Of a stretch of DNA of 64,000 nt, positions 14,998-30,152 are shown one piece after another. A model generated the notes under the pieces. That model searched no databases. It worked only from the letters and a program-made list of their open reading frames with translations, and was not told the DNA's origin. The position numbers were made by a program, and so were the translations under genes. How positions within the stretch are numbered: the first letter of the stretch is position 1; each line of letters begins with the position of its first letter. Location of the stretch: assembly GCA_008501765.1 (NCBI GenBank), contig QQUE01000006.1:186001-250000 (forward strand). Direction: 5' to 3'. The DNA comes from Calditrichota bacterium. Lineage in GTDB: Bacteria; Zhuqueibacterota; Zhuqueibacteria; Zhuqueibacterales; Geothermadaptataceae.

Positions 14998-16206
14998 TTA
15001 ATTTGCAATCGATGTGAGATCCCACATGGGAAGAAAAATAGCGAGGGCGAGAAATAATACGATGATGCCGAGCATGACTGTAATAATTGGCTCAATCATC
15101 GAAGAGAGGCTTTTGACGGCATAATCAACTTCGACATCATAATGGCCGGAAATATTGAGCAGCATTTCGTCCAGTGAGCCGGATTGTTCGCCGATTGAAA
15201 TCATGCGGATAACCATAGGCGGAAATAATTTGCTTTGCCTGAGTGGCACCGCCAATCCATCACCCTTGCGAACACCAAGCGCTGCTTTTTCAATTTCTTT
15301 GCCGATCACTTCATTGCCGACGGTTTTTGAAACGATATCCAACGCCTGAAGGATGGGGAGACCACTGCTGTTTAATGTTTCCAACATGCGTGTGAACCTG
15401 GACATGGTGCTTTTCATAATCAGCGCCCCGAAGATCGGCATCTTCAATTTTATCAAATCCCAATTATAAGCCCCGGAGGGTGTTTTAACCCAAAGCTTGA
15501 AGCCAATAATTGAGGCAATTAAAACGCCACCAACGATGTACCAGTAGCCGGAGATAATCGTGTACATGGCAATAAGCAAGCGTGTTGGCAGCGGCAAGTT
15601 TACCCCAAGTTTGGCGAACATATCAATAAATTTTGGTACGACGAAGAGCATCAGGGAAATAAAAGCAACGGTCAGCGATACGACGATAATTACCGGGTGC
15701 CGCATGGCAGATTTTATCTGCGCCCGCGTCTCCCGGTCAAATTCCATGAGCTCAGCCAGCCGTGCGAGAACTTTGTCCAGCGCGCCGCCCATTTCACCAG
15801 CGCGGATTGTGTTGATATACATTTTTTCAAAGGCCTGCGGGTGTTTGCTTAACGCCTCGGAAAAGCTGATTCCGCTTTCGATGTCCACATAAATCTTCAT
15901 AATTATATCGCGCATACTCTCATTTTCCGCTTGCTCAGCCAGGGCATCGAGGCAGGAAAGCAAGGGGACGCCGGCTTTTAGCAGAACCACGAGTTGCCGG
16001 GTGAAAACGATGACATCGTCCGTTTTAATTTTGGCTTTTTGGTTAAATATCTCCAGGTTTAAACCGGCATTTTTACTCTTGATGTTGAGTGGATGGTACC
16101 CAATCGACCGTAGTTTATCCGAGGCTGCTATTGAACTGGCCGCTTCAACGGTGTCTTCAACAACGATGCCGTTTGTATTGATCGCTTTGTAGCTAAACAG
16201 GGGCAT
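14998..16206 (-). CDS. pilC: Type IV pilus / type II secretion inner-membrane platform protein PilC (GspF)
   Basis: Polytopic inner-membrane protein that anchors the assembly ATPase and the growing fibre. The N-terminus MPLFSYKAIN is the normal PilC start. Two T2SSF domains follow: the first around residues 65-190 with FTRQLVVLLKAGVPLLSCLDAL and IRAGEMGGALDKVLARLAELME; the second around 270-395 with FTRMLETLNSSGLPILQAL and ISIGEQSGSLDEMLLNISGHYD. Three membrane helices are visible. Length 402 aa is standard. It starts 13 bases after the sigma-54 activator stop and is followed by the pilin promoter region. Confidence 0.95.
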   Translation of the reverse strand: MPLFSYKAINTNGIVVEDTVEAASSIAASDKLRSIGYHPLNIKSKNAGLNLEIFNQKAKIKTDDVIVFTRQLVVLLKAGVPLLSCLDALAEQAENESMRDIIMKIYVDIESGISFSEALSKHPQAFEKMYINTIRAGEMGGALDKVLARLAELMEFDRETRAQIKSAMRHPVIIVVSLTVAFISLMLFVVPKFIDMFAKLGVNLPLPTRLLIAMYTIISGYWYIVGGVLIASIIGFKLWVKTPSGAYNWDLIKLKMPIFGALIMKSTMSRFTRMLETLNSSGLPILQALDIVSKTVGNEVIGKEIEKAALGVRKGDGLAVPLRQSKLFPPMVIRMISIGEQSGSLDEMLLNISGHYDVEVDYAVKSLSSMIEPIITVMLGIIVLFLALAIFLPMWDLTSIAN

Positions 16207-16218
16207 AATAATTCCGGA

Positions 16219-17643
16219 TCAATGGTTATTCATCACGGAGATAGCGAAGCGTGGAACCTGAATTTCGTACTTGTGAATTTTGCGGTACAGGGTCGTTCGG
16301 CCGATGCCGAGAGCCGAGGCGGTGGAACTCATATTGTAATTGGTCAGTTTGAGTGCGTGTTGCAATACCTCTTTTTCTATTTCTTCGAGGGGGATTATGC
16401 GTCGGCTCATGCTTACCGCGGCGCGGAAATCAAACATGTTTTGGCTGGGCTGATTATTAAAAGCATTAAACGAAGTAATCGTCATCGGCAGGTGGTCTGG
16501 CTGAATTAATCCGGAGCCGGCAGTGAGAATCGAGCGCTCGATTACATTTTGCAGCTCGCGAATATTGCCGGGCCACTTGTAATTGATTAAAAAATCCATG
16601 GCTTTGCTTGAGAAACCAACCACTTCGTGCCCCGTGGTTTCGTGAAATTTGCGAATAAAAAAAGCGACCAGCACAGGAATATCTTCCCGGCGTTCACGCA
16701 GCGGCGGAATTGCAATTGGATAAACGCTGATGCGATAGTATAAATCTTCCCGAAAACGGCCTTGTTTCATTTCTTCTTCAAGATTTTTGTTGGTCGCTGA
16801 AATAATACGCACATCGACGTCGAGCAGCTCGGTGCCGCCAACGCGTTGAAAACGCTGTTCCTGCAGAATGCGCAGAATTTTAACTTGCGTCGTTTGCGGC
16901 ATATCGCCGATTTCATCGAGAAAGATTGTGCCGCCGTTTGCCTGCTCGAATTTTCCGGGACGCATATTGTAAGCGCCGGTAAAAGCACCTTTTTCATGGC
17001 CAAAGAGTTCACTTTCCAGCAATTGCTCCGGAATAGCAGCACAGTTTACGGGCACGAATGGCTTCTGGCGCCGGTCACCGTGGTGGTGAATGGCGTTGGC
17101 AAGCAGCTCTTTTCCGGTGCCACTTTCACCCTGAATTGCTACGGTAACCGGACTATCCAGCACTTTTTCGATGCTTTGAAACACCTCCTGCATGCGGCGG
17201 CTAATTCCAATGACGTTGCCAAATCCGAATTTATCTTTTAACTCGCCCTTGAGCCGATGCACTTCCGCGGTTAGGCTGCCTGTTAAAAGAGCATTGTGAA
17301 TAATGACTTTCAGCCGGTCCCAATCTGCCGGTTTGGTGACATAATCGTAGGCCCCGAGTTTCATCGCTTCGATGGCGGTATCAATATGTTCGTTGCCGGT
17401 TAAAATGATCACCGGCAATCCCGGCCGAATGTTTTTCAGCTTTTTTAATGTATCGATACCGTGCATTCCCGGCATAATTAAATCGAGCAAAATCAAATCA
17501 AAATTATGAATTTCGATGAGTTGCAGACCGTCCATTCCGGAATAGGCTCGTTCAACCAGATAGCCCTGATTTGTGAGTAATTCAGCGGCGAGTTTGGTAA
17601 AATCTTCCTCATCATCTATAATCAGCAATCGTTTTTCATTCAT
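16219..17643 (-). CDS. NtrC-family sigma-54-dependent response regulator (PilR/AtoC-like)
   Basis: Three-domain activator of sigma-54 RNA polymerase. The receiver domain has the phosphoacceptor Asp54 in LILLDLIMPG. The AAA+ domain has Walker A GESGTGKE at 172-179, the sigma-54 contact loop GAFTGA at 219-224 and Walker B FLDEIGD near 241. The Fis-type helix-turn-helix at the end is SSTASALGIGRTTLYRKI. The start is the ATG at 17643, preceded by AAGG; an in-frame TTG at 17664 is weaker. Its likely target is the pilin promoter at 14643-14658, by analogy with PilR control of pilA; its kinase partner could be the histidine kinase encoded at 23500-25026. Confidence 0.93.
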   Translation of the reverse strand: MNEKRLLIIDDEEDFTKLAAELLTNQGYLVERAYSGMDGLQLIEIHNFDLILLDLIMPGMHGIDTLKKLKNIRPGLPVIILTGNEHIDTAIEAMKLGAYDYVTKPADWDRLKVIIHNALLTGSLTAEVHRLKGELKDKFGFGNVIGISRRMQEVFQSIEKVLDSPVTVAIQGESGTGKELLANAIHHHGDRRQKPFVPVNCAAIPEQLLESELFGHEKGAFTGAYNMRPGKFEQANGGTIFLDEIGDMPQTTQVKILRILQEQRFQRVGGTELLDVDVRIISATNKNLEEEMKQGRFREDLYYRISVYPIAIPPLRERREDIPVLVAFFIRKFHETTGHEVVGFSSKAMDFLINYKWPGNIRELQNVIERSILTAGSGLIQPDHLPMTITSFNAFNNQPSQNMFDFRAAVSMSRRIIPLEEIEKEVLQHALKLTNYNMSSTASALGIGRTTLYRKIHKYEIQVPRFAISVMNNH

Positions 17644-17801
17644 GATCGATTGGGCCTTTTTCAATAATTCTTTCGGTGTCGATTAATTCCCGGAGAATGG
17701 GGTGGTGTCGGCTAATCACAGAATTTCCTTAAAAGTAAAATTCCATTATTTTTCGTATCGGCAGGTTTGGCGCTTTTATAAGATCATGAAAGTAATGTTA
17801 T

Positions 17802-17949
17802 TTAGCCTGAATTATTCATAAAGTGCAGTGGATGTGCCTGGCACTTAGTTGATTTTTAAAAATTTAACTAAACAAAGTAGCGTTTAATGGCTTTCATAAC
17901 TTGTAGAAGTGCCAGGCACATTTTTATCAGTTTATGAATAGATCAGGTT
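17802..17949. repeat. MITE-like element, family 1, core type TGCCTGGCAC (copy A)
   Basis: Ends are inverted repeats TTAGCCTGAATTATTCATAA and, at the far end, TTTATGAATAGATCAGGTT. Inside, TGTGCCTGGCACTT pairs with AAGTGCCAGGCACA. A nearly identical 148-bp copy lies at 29920-30068. The rest of the 17644-18402 gap holds the structured repeat at 18203 and no gene. Confidence 0.8.
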
Positions 17950-18202
17950 CGATGTGTAGATTATTAAAAATAACCTGTTAAAATTATCATCATTCATTAA
18001 AACTGCCCACAGGCTGTCAATTTGCTGATGCCGGCCTTCGGCTCCGAGTGTTTTTATCAGGAATCTACCCTCTGCTGTTAGTATGGATTCACGCTTGGAG
18101 CATGCGCATGTGAATTATCCTAAGATTTACAAAAAGGGCGAAGAGGGGAGTTAATTTTTAAGGCTAAATACCGGTATCTGTTAACCTAAATTCAGGCAAG
18201 TA

Positions 18203-18402: not shown

Positions 18403-19932
18403 TCAGGATTCGATTGGAGAAGTGTGTAATTTAGTAACTTCCTCGCGAAGTTTTTTTCGTAAAACAGAGGAAGCTTGTTCAAATATCAACTCTTCATCGC
18501 CGTGGCTTTCTGAATTCTCCCGGATCCAGACAGATTCCAATAGTGCTGCTTTTTTTGATAAATCCGGATTTGAATCAATTGTTTCTTTGTCATTGGTTAG
18601 AAAATCAGGTTTATCCTTGAAAACACGATTGAGGGGATAATTGATATAAATTTGCCGCAATTGATGGGCTAAACGTATTTTCGCTGCATCATATAAAATA
18701 GACCGAAATAATTCCCACGGATTCGATGCCTGAAATGCGATTACAACGGCAGTCCCACTTTCAGCCAGATTTACGGCATGAGTGAGCGTGTATGAATCGC
18801 GTATGTCTTTCAAAAAAAGACAATCAACACCGGAGAGCTCGGCAAATTGCAAGGCTGATGCCTGCTCATTTCTTTGAATGCAGGTTAATTGCAGCACATC
18901 CGGTAACAAATGCGTGGGTTTGGTTTCAATTGAAAGAGGATTTTGGAATTCCTGTTTTGCTCGATTGAGTAAAGAATAATAGCTATCATTGAGAGAGAAT
19001 TCATCGGCAGAACTGAGTATTGTCACTCCGGCGGGAAGCTTCATTGCGCTGAAATTTTTAAATTGGGTGCAATCCGGATTCGCTGATAAATCAGGCCGTT
19101 CCATTTGAATGTGAAAGGACAATCCTTGGTATTGGCTTGCTGAGCTGGAAAAAAGATGGAACCGCACAATTTTATTGTTTATTTCTTTTTCAATTTGAAA
19201 GCGTTTGGGCCCGCGACCGCCCGGGTACATGTCATCCCCCAAATTACAGATCATGCGAATAAAATTACTGGCCGTCATCTTTTCCGGCAGATCCCAGTTT
19301 TTTGTGCCCGCAGCATTGAAAATACGGAGTTTATCTGCCACAACGATAGCTTTATAAACCTGTTTATCGACCAGCTTTTTTAGCAGGCTATCAATCTGTG
19401 ATAATAAATTATCCTGTTCGTGGCCCTGCTCAACAACTGTCACAGGAAAATCGGGATTTGCGACCGGAGGATTATTACTTAACTGTGGCTCCGGCATTTC
19501 TTGTGGATAGTGTTTTTGCAAGGCTTCGAGAATATCCGCTTCCATGGCAATCACGGGTTCAACTTTTAGTTTGGTCGCGCGGGTTAACTCATCGAGGGCG
19601 TAAATATCAAGCGGATTTACCATAGCCACGCTGAGTCTGTTGTGCAACCGGAATAGGGGAAAGACAAAGTAATTCCAGGCTATTTCCGGCGAGATATATT
19701 CGAGCACGTCTTCATCAAAGCGGTAATTTTTAAGATTGATGTATTGCACGCCGAGCTGGGTACTCAGGTTTTTAATGATTTCTTTTTCTTCGAGAATTTT
19801 CAGCTCGATAAATGCCCGGCCCAGTTTGACACCATTTTCATTGTGATATGTTAAAGCCTGGCTCAGTTGCTCTTCAGTGATGAGTCCCTGTTCAAGAAGA
19901 AACTCACCAAGCAGAATATTTTTCTTCGTCAA
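18403..19932 (-). CDS. PilB/GspE-like pseudo-ATPase with MshEN N-terminal domain
   Basis: The N-terminal 140 residues align with those of the neighbouring PilB (GEFLLEQGLITEEQL, then VEPVIAMEADILEALQKHY), i.e. a type II secretion E / MshEN domain. The C-terminal 200 residues also follow PilB colinearly (LPAGVTILSS for YGILLVTGP; VDCLFLKDIRDS for PDIVMVGEIRDS). The catalytic motifs are gone: Walker A GPTGSGKT is SADEFSLN near residues 308-315, the Asp box is lost, the His box has no His, and the zinc-binding Cys pairs are absent. I chose the TTG at 19932 because AGGAGG lies five bases upstream; a longer frame from 19956 is possible. It probably has a regulatory or structural role in the ATPase ring. 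The fold assignment is strong, the role is inferred. Confidence 0.8.
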   Translation of the reverse strand: MTKKNILLGEFLLEQGLITEEQLSQALTYHNENGVKLGRAFIELKILEEKEIIKNLSTQLGVQYINLKNYRFDEDVLEYISPEIAWNYFVFPLFRLHNRLSVAMVNPLDIYALDELTRATKLKVEPVIAMEADILEALQKHYPQEMPEPQLSNNPPVANPDFPVTVVEQGHEQDNLLSQIDSLLKKLVDKQVYKAIVVADKLRIFNAAGTKNWDLPEKMTASNFIRMICNLGDDMYPGGRGPKRFQIEKEINNKIVRFHLFSSSASQYQGLSFHIQMERPDLSANPDCTQFKNFSAMKLPAGVTILSSADEFSLNDSYYSLLNRAKQEFQNPLSIETKPTHLLPDVLQLTCIQRNEQASALQFAELSGVDCLFLKDIRDSYTLTHAVNLAESGTAVVIAFQASNPWELFRSILYDAAKIRLAHQLRQIYINYPLNRVFKDKPDFLTNDKETIDSNPDLSKKAALLESVWIRENSESHGDEELIFEQASSVLRKKLREEVTKLHTSPIES

Positions 19933-19974
19933 TTTTGCCTCCTGGTAATGCTGCAATCGCCGTGTTGAATTGAA

Positions 19975-20394
19975 TCATCCTTGTTTATTAGATTCTGCCT
20001 GCTTTTTCGTGGTGTTGCGCTCATTTGCAGAAATGAGGTCGTTCATGTTTATGAGCAGTTCCTGCCAGTTGACGGGTTTGACGTAATAGGCGTCAGCACC
20101 GGCCTCCATCGCCAGTTCGGTATCTGATTCCAGCGAGCGCGCCGTGACAATGATTATCGGAATATGCTCAAATTCTTTGTCAAATTTAATAAAACGGCAA
20201 ATCCGGTACCCGTCCACTTCCGGCAACATCAAATCAAGCAGAATGAGATCGGGATAAATTGAGCGCGCCATTTCAAGGCCCTTGTTGCCATCTGCGGCGG
20301 TGTGAACCTCAAATCCTGCAGCGTTCAACCGAATTTTGTACTGATACACCAATTCGGGTGTATCTTCAACAACGAGTATCTTTTTTTTCTCCAT
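19975..20394 (-). CDS. Single-domain response regulator (CheY-like)
   Basis: A 139-aa receiver domain. VVEDTPELV carries the acidic pocket, the phosphoacceptor Asp is in LILLDLMLPEVDG, followed by the conserved Thr/Ser (VTARS) and Lys (YYVKPVNW). A short charged tail (NERNTTKKQAESNKQ) follows and there is no output domain. It lies 29 bases after pilB and 42 bases before the pseudo-ATPase start, so it is in the same transcript and probably controls assembly by protein contact, as PilG/PilH or FrzZ-type proteins do. It is similar in architecture to the CheY at 23095. Confidence 0.93.
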   Translation of the reverse strand: MEKKKILVVEDTPELVYQYKIRLNAAGFEVHTAADGNKGLEMARSIYPDLILLDLMLPEVDGYRICRFIKFDKEFEHIPIIIVTARSLESDTELAMEAGADAYYVKPVNWQELLINMNDLISANERNTTKKQAESNKQG

Positions 20395-20423: not shown

Positions 20424-22139
20424 TTACGTATCGACATTTGTGGCACGCATAACTTCTTCTATGGTCGTGATGCCTTTGAGCACTTTTACAAATCCATCTT
20501 GCCTCAAAGTGCGCATTCCATTGCGAATCGATGCCTTTTTAATTTCGTCAGATGTAGCCGATTGCAAGCAAAGTGTTCTTACTTCTTCATTAAAAAGAAG
20601 AATTTCATAAATTCCCATTCTCCCTTTATAGCCCATATTGTTGCATTGTTTGCAGCCTTTGCCTTTATAAAAAACCCAATTTCTTTTTGCCGGATTAAAA
20701 CCCAACTCATTGAGCAAATCTGTAGTCGGTGTGTAGGCATATTTGCATTTGGGGCAAATTTTACGAACCAGCCGTTGGGCCAGAACCCCAATAGTTGCGC
20801 TGGCAACCAAAAAGGGTTCGACACCCATTTCGATGAGCCTGGTAACAGCGCCCGGGGCATCGTTTGTGTGCAAAGTAGAAAGAACCAAATGTCCGGTTAA
20901 TGCCGCCTCCACTGCGATCTTTGCTGTCTCGGAATCACGGATTTCACCCACCATCACGATATCCGGGTCCTGGCGTAAAATGGAGCGCAGCCCGGCAGCA
21001 AAAGTCATTTTGGCTTTGGTGTTCACCTGCGCCTGGCGAATCAATGGCAATCGGTATTCCACCGGGTCTTCGATGGTGATAATATTTTTATCCGGCGTAT
21101 TGATTTTATTCAAACAGGAATACAAGGTTGTCGTCTTGCCTGATCCCGTAGGTCCGGTCACCAGCAGTATTCCATAAGAGCTGGACAGCGCATTTTTCAA
21201 ATTTGCGAGATTTTCTTCGCCGAATCCCAGTTCCTCCAGATTGATCATCAAACTGCTTTTGTCAAGAATCCGGCAGACGATATTTTCGCCGTAAACCGTG
21301 GGCAAAGTCGAGACACGCAGATCGACGACATTGCCGTTAAAACTGGCCTGGCAACGGCCGTCCTGCGGAACGCGGGTCTCTGCGATATCCATTTCGGACA
21401 GTATTTTTAACCGCGATATTATCGCAGCCTGTAAATTTTTCGGCGGCGTAAATGCCTCCCGTAAGATGCCGTCTATCCGGTACCGAACCATCAGCTTGTC
21501 CTCTTCGGGGCTGATATGAATATCGGAAGCACCATTGGAAATTGCCTGTCCGATTATTAAATTCACCAGTTTGATGACCGGCGCATCTTCGGCAGCCTGC
21601 TTCAGTGATTCGGTGTTTTTTTCTTCATCGTGCTGCGGCTGCTCCGCCTGAATTTTTTCGATAACTTCATCGTAAGAAGTGTCGATGACCTCGCTTGGTC
21701 CGTATATTTCAATGAGCGCATTTTTGATATCTTCAGCCGGGCTGATGGCTGGTTCAATTTCAAGTTTCGTGGTGCGTCGCAGCGTGTCTGTAACAGCCAC
21801 ATCAGCCGCGTTCGACATGGCCACTGTGAGCACATTACCTATTTTGAAAATTGGAATGACGCGAAATTGATAGGCCATTTCTTTCGGTAAATATGCCGTG
21901 GCTTCCTTTTCTATTTCATAGTCTTCCAGTTCGAGATAGGGTATTTCCAACTGCTCGGCCACGCACCGCAATACATCTTCAGTTTGGGCATATCCCCGCC
22001 GCAAAATTAATGCAGCCAGGTCTTCTTTGGTCGAATTGTGTTCCTGAAATGCTTTTTCTAAATCTTCAAATGTGATATAGCCATGATCAATGAGAATATC
22101 ACCGAGCTTTTCATCATTTTGTTTAAGCATCGGTGTCAT
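20424..22139 (-). CDS. pilB: Type IV pilus assembly ATPase PilB (GspE)
   Basis: Cytoplasmic hexameric ATPase that drives fibre extension. MshEN domain at residues 1-150; N2 domain near 190-290 (SDIHISPEED, VRYRIDG). The catalytic domain is complete: Walker A GPTGSGKT at 329-336, Asp box IITIEDPVEY, Walker B DIVMVGEIRDSE from 393, and His box TGHLVLSTLHTND at 416-427. Four Cys at 462, 465, 496 and 499 form the PilB/GspE zinc knuckle. Length 571 aa is typical. Its ATG shares one base with the stop codon of the HDOD gene, so translation is coupled. No retraction ATPase PilT, secretin or PilMNOP is present in the window. Confidence 0.96.
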   Translation of the reverse strand: MTPMLKQNDEKLGDILIDHGYITFEDLEKAFQEHNSTKEDLAALILRRGYAQTEDVLRCVAEQLEIPYLELEDYEIEKEATAYLPKEMAYQFRVIPIFKIGNVLTVAMSNAADVAVTDTLRRTTKLEIEPAISPAEDIKNALIEIYGPSEVIDTSYDEVIEKIQAEQPQHDEEKNTESLKQAAEDAPVIKLVNLIIGQAISNGASDIHISPEEDKLMVRYRIDGILREAFTPPKNLQAAIISRLKILSEMDIAETRVPQDGRCQASFNGNVVDLRVSTLPTVYGENIVCRILDKSSLMINLEELGFGEENLANLKNALSSSYGILLVTGPTGSGKTTTLYSCLNKINTPDKNIITIEDPVEYRLPLIRQAQVNTKAKMTFAAGLRSILRQDPDIVMVGEIRDSETAKIAVEAALTGHLVLSTLHTNDAPGAVTRLIEMGVEPFLVASATIGVLAQRLVRKICPKCKYAYTPTTDLLNELGFNPAKRNWVFYKGKGCKQCNNMGYKGRMGIYEILLFNEEVRTLCLQSATSDEIKKASIRNGMRTLRQDGFVKVLKGITTIEEVMRATNVDT

Positions 22140-22993
22140 TAATGAACCAGGGCTAACAAGTCAGCCGAATCTTTCAGTTTTTCGCCCACACTTTCGGTTA
22201 ATTCTTGTAAATCGGCTTTTTCGATATCCAGTTCTTCCATAGCAAAAGAATTTATAGCGGGAATTAGCGAATCTCCACCGGAGCCAATTTCCAGTTTGCG
22301 CGCTAAAATATCAGCCAAATGCACAAGACTCACCATCTGCGGATTACTGCGTAAAATGGACGGGGTATGATGTAATGCAACACTTTCCACCAGCAGGTGG
22401 GGCAGACTCCAATGCTCCAACAGATATTCACCAATTTCACAGTGGTCTGTTTCGATTACAAATCGTTCGGCTTCAAGAATCGAACATTGCCGGCTTTGGA
22501 CTGTCTCAATGATTTTTTTGAATTTTTCCGGCAAAACCTGGTCGAGAACAAGTTTCCCGATATCGTGCAAAATGCCGCAGGCGAAAGCTTCATCTTCCAT
22601 GCCCACGCGTAATTCTTTTGCCAAATGCCGGGTGATTGTTCCAACCCCGAACGAGTGTTCCCAAAATGCTTGCCGGTCAAAACAGGAATTATCTTTTGAT
22701 TCAAAGGCTTCAATAACTGAAATTGAGAGAACGGCACTGCGAATGGCATTAAATCCCAGCAGGACAACAGCCTGATTAATTTGTGTTATTTTTCTGCTGA
22801 ATCCGAAAAAGGATGAATTGACAAGCCGCAGTACTTTGGATGAAATAGCCTGATCCGATTCGATAATTCGGGAAACCTGATTTGAATTCGATTGTGATGA
22901 CTGCAGGAGCTGATTCAGTTTCAGATAAACTGTTGGTAATGTTGGCAGCTCTGTAATATCATCGAGGAGTTCTGCAAGTTTTTCCTGGCTCAT
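22139..22993 (-). CDS. HDOD-domain signalling protein
   Basis: A 284-aa protein with an HDOD domain over most of its length: LPTLPTVYLKLNQLL at the start, SSKVLRLVNSSFFGFSRKI, INQAVVLLGFNAIRS, then the partly HD-like GILHDIGKLVLDQVLP. DHCEIGEYLLEHWSLPHLLVESVALHH follows. Unlike many HDOD proteins it keeps an HD dyad (LHDIGK) and downstream His residues, so metal-dependent phosphohydrolase activity is not excluded. HDOD proteins usually act as signalling or scaffold modules and occur beside chemosensory and motility genes. It is coupled to pilB. Confidence 0.9.
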   Translation of the reverse strand: MSQEKLAELLDDITELPTLPTVYLKLNQLLQSSQSNSNQVSRIIESDQAISSKVLRLVNSSFFGFSRKITQINQAVVLLGFNAIRSAVLSISVIEAFESKDNSCFDRQAFWEHSFGVGTITRHLAKELRVGMEDEAFACGILHDIGKLVLDQVLPEKFKKIIETVQSRQCSILEAERFVIETDHCEIGEYLLEHWSLPHLLVESVALHHTPSILRSNPQMVSLVHLADILARKLEIGSGGDSLIPAINSFAMEELDIEKADLQELTESVGEKLKDSADLLALVH

Positions 22994-23094: not shown

Positions 23095-23478
23095 TCAGGC
23101 TGGTAATTCGCTTAATTTTAAATAGTGATTTATCAGCCCGACCAATTCTTTGGGTTCGTATGGTTTGGTAATATATTCGTCAGCGCCTGTCTTTTTACCC
23201 AGCTCTCTGTCTGAATTTTTCCGGCGTGAGGTCAACATAAATATTGGAGTTTTCTGATACTTTTTGTCGAATTTCAGTAACCGGCATAATTTGTAACCAT
23301 TCATTTTGGGCAGCATGACATCCAGAATAATTAAATCAGGATTGTCCTCCCGGGCGCGCTGCAGGCCCTCCTGCCCATCCAGTGCAGTGATAATCTCAAA
23401 TCCTGCGTTTTCCAGCCTGACGCGCAGCACTTCGACGATGTGGGCATAATCTTCAATAATCAGTATCTTTTTTTTCAT
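23095..23478 (-). CDS. Single-domain response regulator (CheY-like)
   Basis: A 127-aa receiver. IIEDYAHIVEVL gives the acidic pocket, LIILDVMLPKMNG the phosphoacceptor Asp, MLTSRR the Thr, and YITKPYEP the conserved Lys. There is no effector domain. It lies 21 bases after the histidine kinase stop codon, which makes that kinase its probable phosphodonor. About 100 bases separate it from the HDOD gene. Confidence 0.93.
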   Translation of the reverse strand: MKKKILIIEDYAHIVEVLRVRLENAGFEIITALDGQEGLQRAREDNPDLIILDVMLPKMNGYKLCRLLKFDKKYQKTPIFMLTSRRKNSDRELGKKTGADEYITKPYEPKELVGLINHYLKLSELPA

Positions 23479-23499: not shown

Positions 23500-25026
23500 C
23501 TATTCTTCGTCGTTCTCGGTTTTTGGAATCGTAAAGTAGAAAGTTGTGCCTTTATGCAGCTCACTTTCAAGCCAGATACGGCCGCCGTGTGCTTTAATCA
23601 AATCCCGGGCGATCGACAGGCCAAGACCAAAACCGGTGGCTGTGCCTTTGCTATAAGATTCAACTTGAAAAAAACGTTCAAAAATCTTCTCCTGCATTTC
23701 AGCGGGAATTCCAATGCCTTCATCGGAAATTCTGACCTGAATTCCAGTGTCATTTTCCTCGATACCGATTGTAATCTGGCTGTTTCGCGGGGAAAATTTG
23801 ATTGCGTTGTCGAGCAAATTCATCAGAATTTGAGTAACCCGGTCGCGGTCGCCGATAAAACTGCTTATGCGCTGCGGAAAGATGGTTTTGAGCTTGATTT
23901 CCCGTGATTTTGCCAAAATCGTGTACGATTCGATGACGCGGTTGGCAATCATATCAATTCGTACATGCCGCCGCCGATCGAGCATAATTTTACCGTCATT
24001 AATTTTTGTGCTGTCAAGCAAATCGTGCAGCATGCGTTGCATGTGGCGGATGTCATCTTTCAGAATGGAAAGCATGCGACGCTGGTCTTTGTTAATCGGG
24101 CCAACTTCTTCATCTGTGAGCAAATCGACCGTGCTTTGCATGGAAACGAGAGGTGTTTTGAGTTCGTGGCTGGCGATGGAAATAATTGAGCGCAACTGAT
24201 CGGACTGCCAGCTTGCGGTTATGTCGCGCAACATTATCAACCAGCCAATGGAATTGTTTTCCAAATCCGGTACGTGAGCAATGTGAACGCCGAGCAGGTT
24301 TGTGCGGTTGTCATTCAGGCGAATAACTTTATTGAGTTGGTGCAAACCATTATCGATAGCCTCGCGCAAAAGTTCGCTGATATCACAAATTGTTGTTGGC
24401 AGAAGCGGGCTGCCGATTGGCGGCATTTCGTGCATGCCTGTCAATTTTTGTGCGTTTTGGTTGATAAACAAGATATGTTCGTCATCATCACACAAAATGA
24501 CACCGTCCATGAGTTTGCGAAAAAGTGCTTCGTACTCCCCATGACTTTCAAGGAGCCGGTTCCACAACAACCAAATACCATTGTCCTTTTTTTTCTCGCA
24601 CAGGCGGAGCGCATCGTTGGTTTTGATGTCGATCCCGCTGTCAGAGAATGCGATACAAATAATAAACTCCGCGCCGGTCTCGAAATTTAAATGAAAACTT
24701 TGCAACCGTTTGATGGGATGAATAACATGCGGGTGCATGTAGCCTTCATTTTCTTTGCCATTTATTGCGGTTTTAATTTCAGCAGAATCGATCAGTGGCC
24801 AGCCGAGTTTCAAAGCGTGGGTTACTATTTTATCGCGGATTTTATGAATATCACCGGGAACAAGAGGGCCCCGCGTCTGGATTGAAATACAGTCCTGGTT
24901 TTTGTAAAGTGTTGCAACACTGGTTTCCGCTTTGGCAATTTGAAATGTCAGCAGCCGTAAGGTATCGGCGTCTACAGGAATCGGTGGTTGTTTTGCTATC
25001 GTATTTTCTTGCACAAGTGGGGACAT
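23500..25026 (-). CDS. PAS-domain sensor histidine kinase
   Basis: A cytoplasmic kinase of about 508 aa with no clear membrane segment. The N-terminal 150 residues are an unrecognised input region. A PAS domain follows (LFRKLMDGVILCDDDEHILFINQNAQ). The HisKA dimerisation helix carries the phosphoacceptor His287 in ASHELKTPL. The HATPase domain has the N box NLLDNAIKFS, G1 DEGIGI and G2 GFGLGLSIA, so all catalytic motifs are intact. The ATG at 25026 has AGGA at good spacing. A GTG at 25062, overlapping the prepilin peptidase stop by ten bases, is an alternative. It probably phosphorylates the adjacent CheY and perhaps the sigma-54 regulator of this locus. Confidence 0.92.
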   Translation of the reverse strand: MSPLVQENTIAKQPPIPVDADTLRLLTFQIAKAETSVATLYKNQDCISIQTRGPLVPGDIHKIRDKIVTHALKLGWPLIDSAEIKTAINGKENEGYMHPHVIHPIKRLQSFHLNFETGAEFIICIAFSDSGIDIKTNDALRLCEKKKDNGIWLLWNRLLESHGEYEALFRKLMDGVILCDDDEHILFINQNAQKLTGMHEMPPIGSPLLPTTICDISELLREAIDNGLHQLNKVIRLNDNRTNLLGVHIAHVPDLENNSIGWLIMLRDITASWQSDQLRSIISIASHELKTPLVSMQSTVDLLTDEEVGPINKDQRRMLSILKDDIRHMQRMLHDLLDSTKINDGKIMLDRRRHVRIDMIANRVIESYTILAKSREIKLKTIFPQRISSFIGDRDRVTQILMNLLDNAIKFSPRNSQITIGIEENDTGIQVRISDEGIGIPAEMQEKIFERFFQVESYSKGTATGFGLGLSIARDLIKAHGGRIWLESELHKGTTFYFTIPKTENDEE

Positions 25027-25052
25027 GGTTAAAATCCTGCCAAGTTTTTCAA

Positions 25053-25820
25053 TTATTTCCACCCAATCCAGGCGAGATATGCCTGGAGAATTTGATTTTT
25101 AAAACCGATGGAAACAAGCGCGCCAAGCGCAATAAAAGGGCCAAAGGGAACAATACTTCTTCTTTCGAGTCTGCCTGAAAATATACCAACGATCGAAAAA
25201 ACAGCCGCGATGAAAAAGGCGGTAAAGAGGGAAAAAATGATGCTGTCAATCGTCATAAATGCACCGATCATTGCGCCAAATTTGATGTCCCCGCCGCCCA
25301 TGCTTTCCTGTTTATAGATGAATTGCCCGAAAAGCGCAACCAGCATGAGTAAGCCGCCGCCTGCTAAAAGACTCAAAAATGGTATGTAAAACTTTGCCGG
25401 TTCCGCGAAAATCGAAATCGACAGCCCGATGATCATGCCCGGGATTGTAATTTTATCGAGCAAAAGCTGCCGATCGATATCGATAAATGTCGCCGGAATG
25501 AGTAACAAAACGAGAACCGCATATTTGTAAAACTCGAGGGATAATCCAAAAAACATGTAAAGAAACAGTATAATAAGCGGTGTCAGGATTTCGACGATTA
25601 AATAGCGGACAGGAATTTTTACCTTGCATTGCGCGCACCGGCCCAACAAAAGTAAATAGCTGATCACCGGAATATTCTGCCATGGTTTTATTTTTTGCCC
25701 GCATTCCGGACAGTGCGATGCCGGGAAAATAAGCGATTTATTTTCCGGCAGCCGGTGGATGACCACATTGAGAAAACTGCCAATGCAGGCAGAAAGAATG
25801 AGGAGAACAGCGATTTCCAT
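25053..25820 (-). CDS. pilD: Prepilin peptidase / N-methyltransferase PilD (A24 family)
   Basis: Integral inner-membrane aspartic protease that removes prepilin leaders and methylates the new N-terminus. The N-terminal methylase region has GSFLNVVIHRLP and two zinc-binding Cys pairs (C37/C40 and C62/C65), the complete bifunctional form. Catalytic Asp residues are in TFIDIDRQ (114 and 116, one being catalytic) and GGGDIKFG (Asp178). About eight membrane helices are visible; 255 aa is normal. Its substrates are presumably the five prepilin-like proteins encoded downstream in the same locus. Confidence 0.96.
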   Translation of the reverse strand: MEIAVLLILSACIGSFLNVVIHRLPENKSLIFPASHCPECGQKIKPWQNIPVISYLLLLGRCAQCKVKIPVRYLIVEILTPLIILFLYMFFGLSLEFYKYAVLVLLLIPATFIDIDRQLLLDKITIPGMIIGLSISIFAEPAKFYIPFLSLLAGGGLLMLVALFGQFIYKQESMGGGDIKFGAMIGAFMTIDSIIFSLFTAFFIAAVFSIVGIFSGRLERRSIVPFGPFIALGALVSIGFKNQILQAYLAWIGWK

Positions 25821-29598: not shown

Positions 29599-30152
29599 TG
29601 TGTTCAGAAAAAGCTCTATTTATGTTTAAAATGATTTTTCATTTACAGGATCGTGTTGCATTTCCTGTCGGATGTGCCGAAAATTTTTATATAATTGCGG
29701 TTATTGTGAACAGCAGGTCAGACTGGATGCGCAGGGCTGAAAAGAAAATTATTGCGTTGCTGGCATTCCAAAGCATTGCGTAAAATACGATTAAGTGAGA
29801 AATAATGCAAGCCTGGCATCACATTTCGATTTGCCGAAAATTTTAAAATTCTCTGCAATAAGGTTTTCCAGACTGATTTGGAACAATCGCCATAATTATA
29901 AGAAATAACAGCAGGCCATTTAGCCTGAATTATTCATAAAGCACAGTGGATGTGCCTGGCACTTAGTTGATTTTTATAAATTTAACGAAACAAAGTAGCT
30001 TTTAAGGGCTATCATAACTTGTAGAAGTGCCAGGCACATTTTTATCAGTTTATGAATAGATCAGGTTAGATTCTAATTAAAAATCCTTGACTATTGGTGC
30101 TATTTCTTTAAATTATTTAAGTCTAAAATGGCACTACTGGAAGGTAAGAACG
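29599..30152. other. Intergenic region holding a family 1 repeat, no gene
   Basis: About 550 bases between the divergent dusB and the small secreted protein gene. It contains the MITE-like copy B near its end and nothing else recognisable. Confidence 0.5.
29920..30068. repeat. MITE-like element, family 1, core type TGCCTGGCAC (copy B)
   Basis: Same length and nearly the same sequence as the copy at 17802-17949, with the same TTAGCCTGAATTATTCATAA terminus and GTGCCTGGCACTTAG/AAGTGCCAGGCAC core. The few differences are scattered single bases, mostly in the loop. Confidence 0.8.

Follow-up and report, generated by a model that had tools for sequence, protein, structure and literature searches.

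The gene at positions 18403–19932 (minus strand) of the window, by which is meant the whole 64,000-nucleotide stretch of DNA that was analysed, encodes a 509-residue protein, psPilB, that represents a branch of the PilB family made up of pseudoenzymes. It traces back to an ancient second PilB, has lost the catalytic motifs of an extension ATPase, and is under purifying selection in which constraint has shifted to the N-terminal domain; it is also linked across genomes to CheY1, a receiver gene encoded just upstream. It is very probably a dead paralogue kept for a function, and the target of that function is probably the pilus motor. The narrower proposition, that psPilB works mainly through its N-terminal domain (N1D) together with CheY1, is about evenly balanced.

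All genes of the locus lie on the minus strand. psPilB is preceded by CheY1 (19975–20394), a stand-alone receiver with the Asp, Thr and Lys of an active receiver, and this in turn by PilB (20424–22139), a complete extension ATPase of the active type in which every motif is present (T2SSE, 2.3e-143). Further upstream, domain searches identified an HDOD-domain protein belonging to the operon of PilB (22139–22993), a second stand-alone receiver, CheY2 (23095–23478), a PAS histidine kinase that is PilS-like by position (23500–25062) and the prepilin peptidase PilD (25053–25820). On the downstream side, an NtrC-type sigma-54 response regulator, PilR-like by position (16219–17664; domain search), is followed by the platform protein PilC (14998–16206; T2SSF, 2.3e-64). 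The original prediction placed psPilB between two CheY genes, which is incorrect for the downstream side, where the neighbour is the NtrC-type gene. The gap between psPilB and this gene is 738 bp, compared with ∼69 bp in a sister species (G001). A non-coding repeat of ∼150 bp, which carries GTGCCTGGCAC / GTGCCAGGCAC palindromes and is of the MITE or REP type, is present in roughly 40 copies in the genome of the window (G000, 5.9 Mb), most of them at 82–97% identity; the window holds copies at 17799–17952 and 29918–30084, and one copy lies inside the 738-bp gap. The order PilD, histidine kinase, CheY2, HDOD, PilB, CheY1, B2 (the ancient second PilB, of which psPilB is the representative here), NtrC, PilC and pilins is common to the window and other classes as far as the contigs reach. 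In G003 and G005, the NtrC–PilC–pilin half is located elsewhere and CheY1–psPilB still lies behind pilB. Three more intact ATPases of the PilB/GspE type, each of which has GPTGSGKT and the two cysteine pairs, are encoded at other loci of G000 (L002, L003, and L004).

Homology between psPilB and the neighbouring PilB is detectable by BLASTP (24% identity over 430 residues, E=1e-23) and is stronger between profiles, that of psPilB and its relatives (six sequences) matching a PilB profile at 100% probability (E=4e-46, 474 columns). In Pfam searches, MshEN was the only domain found in psPilB (PF05157, residues 60–146, E=3.7e-20) and there was no match to PF00437 (T2SSE). Three regions can be delimited, namely the N1D/MshEN domain (residues 1–146; 19495–19932), which is also recognized by NCBIfam model NF053729.1, an N2D-like domain (residues 169–277; 19102–19428) assigned from an AF2 model and Foldseek, and a RecA-like core devoid of catalytic motifs (residues 289–434; 18631–19068), for which profile, AF2 and Foldseek evidence agree. 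The six-sequence profile matches core-only PilF structures that contain no MshEN domain (hmmsearch, E∼1e-10), and an AF2 model computed from the six psPilB rows only (mean pLDDT 57.9, with N2 and core mostly at 70–86) matches PilF, PilB and GspE in the PDB (Foldseek, E∼1e-10). A deeper model (46 rows, pLDDT 81) matches the same proteins at E∼1e-15 but is partly circular because PilB rows entered its alignment, so that independent evidence comes from the psPilB-only model. Compared with PDB chains, the full-length models reach only modest TM-scores (about 0.2–0.66), probably because the relative placement of the domains differs, and the fold assignment is carried by E-values and aligned lengths. 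Chance resemblance in the C-terminal half is ruled out by the profile–profile, core-only PilF and Foldseek matches. The proposal that the protein aligns lengthwise with PilB, an MshEN domain being followed by an ATPase core, was thus borne out, the GspE fold having been found in the C-terminal half, and psPilB is a full-length PilB homologue with the GspE/PilB fold. It nevertheless scores far under the cut-off of TIGR02538 (73.2 bits versus 675.65), the best stretch covering residues 8–196 only, although the live PilB of the window also falls just under it, at 646.9 bits.

The residues that bind and hydrolyse nucleotide in PilB have been replaced. At the Walker A position, GPTGSGKT has become SADEFSLN (residues 308–315; 18988–19011; motif alignment and AF2 model), and a P-loop is not predicted because the helix of the model starts at residue 311. 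The Asp box has changed from TIEDPVEY to SIETKPTH, the His box from TGHLVLSTLHTND to SGTAVVIAFQASN, and Walker B from VGEIRDSET to LKDIRDSYT, in which the catalytic Glu is gone. The losses of Walker A, Asp box and His box are those originally described, and with every nucleotide motif gone from a GspE/PilB fold the protein may be called a pseudo-ATPase, for which ATP binding would no longer be expected. Two other details hold for the genus of the window and not for the wider family. Both CxxC pairs of the tetracysteine zinc site, reported as lost, are indeed gone in the window and in G001 but are kept in four other family members (G003–G006). The DIRDS sequence said to hold the place of Walker B (residues 376–380; 18793–18807; motif alignment, Glu to Asp) is present in the window but is genus-specific, relatives reading DVNDR, NITDA or NIVDP; DIRDS is hence a relic rather than a conserved feature, and a functional remnant is ruled out as a family trait.

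Relatives of the gene were sought in MAGs titled KSB1, Bacteroidetes, Deferribacteres or "bacterium". A scan of the genome contigs with psPilB as a single protein gave no matches; a scan with an MshEN profile then detected B2 or psPilB in 18 of 82 genomes. The pairing with PilB recurs in relatives, psPilB being intact in six of the seven genomes of the family of the window (f1), where the other copies are 70, 45, 45, 38, and 39% identical to that of the window. The seventh, G002, a 67%-complete MAG from the same genus, yielded no psPilB, an absence that is uninformative because of this incompleteness and because a transposase follows pilB. That transposase gene, of an IS1595/ISXO2-like type (L049, 2154–3149), lies directly 3′ of pilB, at the expected place of CheY1 and psPilB. 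B2 orthologues occur in twelve genomes outside the family, three in f4 of the same class, seven in f14–f17 outside the class, and one each in f9 (G044) and f11 (G046), and the order PilB–CheY1–B2/psPilB was found in 16 loci of six families. In a tree of MshEN domains, B2 and psPilB (18 rows) are split from PilB (19 rows) with support of 100/100, which indicates that psPilB is orthologous to an ancient second PilB and was not copied from its neighbour. A recent duplication of the neighbouring PilB is thereby ruled out, and with it any view of psPilB as a duplicate of that gene.

The ancient second extension ATPase would have served the same pilus as PilB and probably continues to do so in other families, as B2 appears from its motifs to be catalytically intact in f4 (GPTGSGKT/S) and, as far as it is covered, outside the class. 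In the B2 of G046, Walker A is retained (GPSGSGKT) but the Asp box, Walker B and the His box have disappeared, and that of G044 has GPNESGRT at Walker A and keeps its cysteines. The genes for these two PilB-like proteins, whose active sites are partly destroyed, lie at L046 5573–7171 (G046) and L048 780–2486 (G044). No nucleotide motif is left in f1, where the cysteines were the last to go. The data neither establish nor reject a single decay clade comprising f1, G044, and G046 (AU p=0.087), and in G044 and G046 the same second motor may have decayed independently.

The reading frame of psPilB is intact over 509 codons from a TTG start, 5 nt upstream of which is an AGGAGG ribosome-binding site (19938–19943, read from the sequence), in agreement with the frame of about 510 codons and strong AGGAGG described at the outset. 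AGGAGG occurs five times in the window versus 2.5 expected, so that the pattern alone is not significant and its position is the argument; a protein start of the form xxKKN/xxRKS is common to the relatives. In the one pair in which dS is unsaturated (G004/G006, dS 0.18), dN/dS of psPilB is 0.022 (95% 0.005–0.044), based on 60 synonymous and 5 nonsynonymous changes, compared with 0.024 for PilB, which amounts to strong purifying selection. The G000/G001 pair gives only dN because its dS is saturated. A broken gene, already argued against at the outset, or an assembly error is ruled out by this ratio and by intact frames in six genomes of three genera. In the G005/G003 comparison, dN/dS is 0.088 for psPilB and 0.029 for PilB, the values by domain (PilB in parentheses) being 0.032 (0.034) for MshEN, 0.19 (0.025) for the middle and 0.10 (0.028) for the core, so that the ATPase half is relaxed ∼four- to sevenfold relative to that of PilB. 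Such relaxation, together with the stepwise loss of motifs across lineages and the complete absence of B2 and CheY1 from f7, would suit a relic, i.e., a non-essential second motor that is slowly decaying. This reading is largely refuted by the selection results, by the intact frames and by an N1D that is better conserved than that of PilB, and is accordingly very improbable.

The distribution of constraint along psPilB is the reverse of that in PilB. Between f1 genera, psPilB is 63% identical in N1D, 37% in N2D and 27% in CTD, whereas PilB is 57, 83, and 76% identical, respectively; the N1D of live B2 is likewise better conserved than that of PilB (61% versus 39%, f4 versus other classes). Selection therefore retains psPilB, above all its N-terminal domain. 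Divergence is greatest in the ring-forming domains, psPilB and live f4 B2 sharing 15% identity in N2D and 19% in CTD, and psPilB keeping only 3 of 26 N2D and 13 of 65 CTD residues that are invariant in PilB. This bears on the suggestion that psPilB forms mixed rings with PilB or caps it, which is unproven. Replacement of PilB subunits within the hexamer, by which psPilB would tune the cycle, is consistent with the shared operon and fold and with heterohexamers proposed for this ATPase family (PMC6711533), but PilT and PilU, the pair that has been tested, form separate rings (PMC6821130) and the conserved N-terminal domain of psPilB lies outside the ring. As the ring-forming domains are the diverged ones, mixed rings have the least support among the functional models and are decidedly improbable. 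Somewhat better placed, although doubtful, is a homohexamer of psPilB that stacks with the PilB ring, or takes turns with it, and links that ring to the platform, no ATP being burned, since the N2D and core fold is predicted to be kept and purifying selection still acts on the ATPase half. By analogy, ATP-binding-dead PilT supports PilU-driven retraction, the two forming separate homohexamers (PMC6821130); the small number of PilB-invariant residues left in N2D and CTD speaks against such a stack.

MshE binds c-di-GMP with its MshEN domain through two 24-residue motifs (PMC5013675), for which NF053729.1 is a curated model with a cut-off of 38 bits. The psPilB of the window scores 53 bits, that of G005 72 and the live B2 of G016 68, compared with a borderline 38.6 for the PilB of the window. 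In the 16 genomes with both proteins, 17.7 of the 22 motif positions are kept in B2/psPilB, compared with 13.6 in PilB (Wilcoxon p=0.0006, a statistic that ignores kinship). Within the class of the window, the motif is worn in the live PilB (20424–22139) and better kept in B2/psPilB, and it is possible that motor and sensor roles have been split between the two. In the genus of the window, the motif of psPilB is itself worn (8 of 12 contact residues kept; R9L, Q32H, R38K, and G47K by the numbering of MshE), and c-di-GMP binding would be less likely there than in G005 or live B2. N1D is also thought to be a docking domain, and its conservation could therefore mean docking rather than sensing. 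One form of this idea, that the N1D of psPilB takes the place of PilB at PilM/PilC and so inhibits extension, gains from N1D being the conserved part of the protein and from the existence of natural PilB inhibitors (CpiA, PMC8213720, and others reviewed in PMC11656802), but the N1D of psPilB is only 33% identical to that of the local PilB. Given so strong a difference, they may dock at separate sites, and the decoy is an unlikely reading.

Linkage to CheY1 points to a signalling input. A CheY1 receiver lies between pilB and B2/psPilB in 16 of 16 loci with both on the contig and is present in 16 of the 17 B2/psPilB loci with a visible upstream gene. The degraded B2 of G046 has neither CheY1 nor PilB beside it. 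All 17 pilB loci without B2 lack CheY1; in the six of f7, NtrC comes immediately after PilB, and in the eleven of f18–f23 PilC follows PilB. As f7 adjoins f1 in the PilB tree and f4 falls outside, f7 has most simply lost B2 and CheY1 together. The association draws on few independent events, among them this one inferred co-loss. CheY1 is proposed as the likeliest signalling partner of psPilB.

psPilB shares with PilB/GspE (TIGR02538, PF00437) full-length homology, the N1D–N2D–RecA core order, the fold and the operon context, and differs in the features noted above, the absence of all catalytic motifs and of a PF00437 match and a score under the TIGR02538 cut-off. In Acinetobacter, where two extension motors and an inhibitor are known, TfpB of A. 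baylyi is a distinct second PilB that drives extension of the same pilus (PMC8213720). TfpB is a fair analogue of live B2, being phylogenetically distinct from PilB and serving the same pilus, unlike psPilB, which has no active site; psPilB did not match the TfpB family model NF053534 at E≤0.01, and live B2 falls under its cut-off (513.6 versus 850 bits). PilT and PilU similarly place two paralogous motors in one machine, and engineered ATP-binding-dead PilT supports PilU, but the natural proteins are live enzymes and retraction motors (PMC6821130). CpiA and phage-encoded inhibitors are non-motor proteins that act on PilB, as psPilB may; CpiA lacks homologues among known proteins, whereas psPilB is a PilB paralogue in a pilus operon (PMC8213720, PMC11656802). 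With MshEN receptors (PMC5013675) psPilB has in common an N-terminal domain over the NF053729.1 cut-off, but its guanine-stacking Arg and one Gln are changed and its binding is a prediction. PixE, a CheY-type regulator of Synechocystis, is thought to act directly on PilB1 (PMC7690835), as is proposed here for CheY1 and a relative of the extension ATPase; PixE has a PATAN domain, whereas CheY1 is a bare receiver with a dead paralogue as its proposed target. A naturally dead type IV pilus motor paralogue was not found in the accessible literature (most subscription papers excluded), and the accessible part of a 2024 review of PilB regulation does not name a dead PilB paralogue. Dead paralogues often become regulators, as pseudoenzymes, but we know of none in the PilB superfamily.

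The preferred reading, for which the case is evenly poised, is that a pilus motor paralogue has become a non-catalytic regulator, mainly via its N-terminal domain and with CheY1. In the family of the window, B2 would have lost ATP binding and hydrolysis and been kept as a regulatory subunit, of which the MshEN domain, as a c-di-GMP-type sensor and docking domain, would be the working part and the decayed ATPase half the structural body. CheY1, inherited with psPilB, would provide the signalling input, and psPilB, located at the pilus base and in putative contact with CheY1, PilB or PilC, would govern whether the live PilB ring engages the platform and at what time. It might act as a stacked ring of its own, as a competitor for docking or as a free adaptor. 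A fuller version, more tentative, is that of a natural pseudo-motor of the type IV pilus, in which, following duplication, one PilB was kept as the engine and the other became a dedicated sensor subunit, responsive to c-di-GMP and to a CheY signal, through which the live ring is gated, live, half-dead and dead stages of this conversion being preserved in relatives.

Live, half-dead and dead orthologues in one gene slot make the order of loss visible, the zinc cysteines going last and the N-terminal domain being kept. They also render testable the question of why two PilBs serve one pilus, since here the second has lost its engine and is still kept. In an uncultured bacterium and its relatives, a second motor gene that, to judge from its motifs, can no longer use ATP remains under selection, which suggests that an engine has been turned into a controller.
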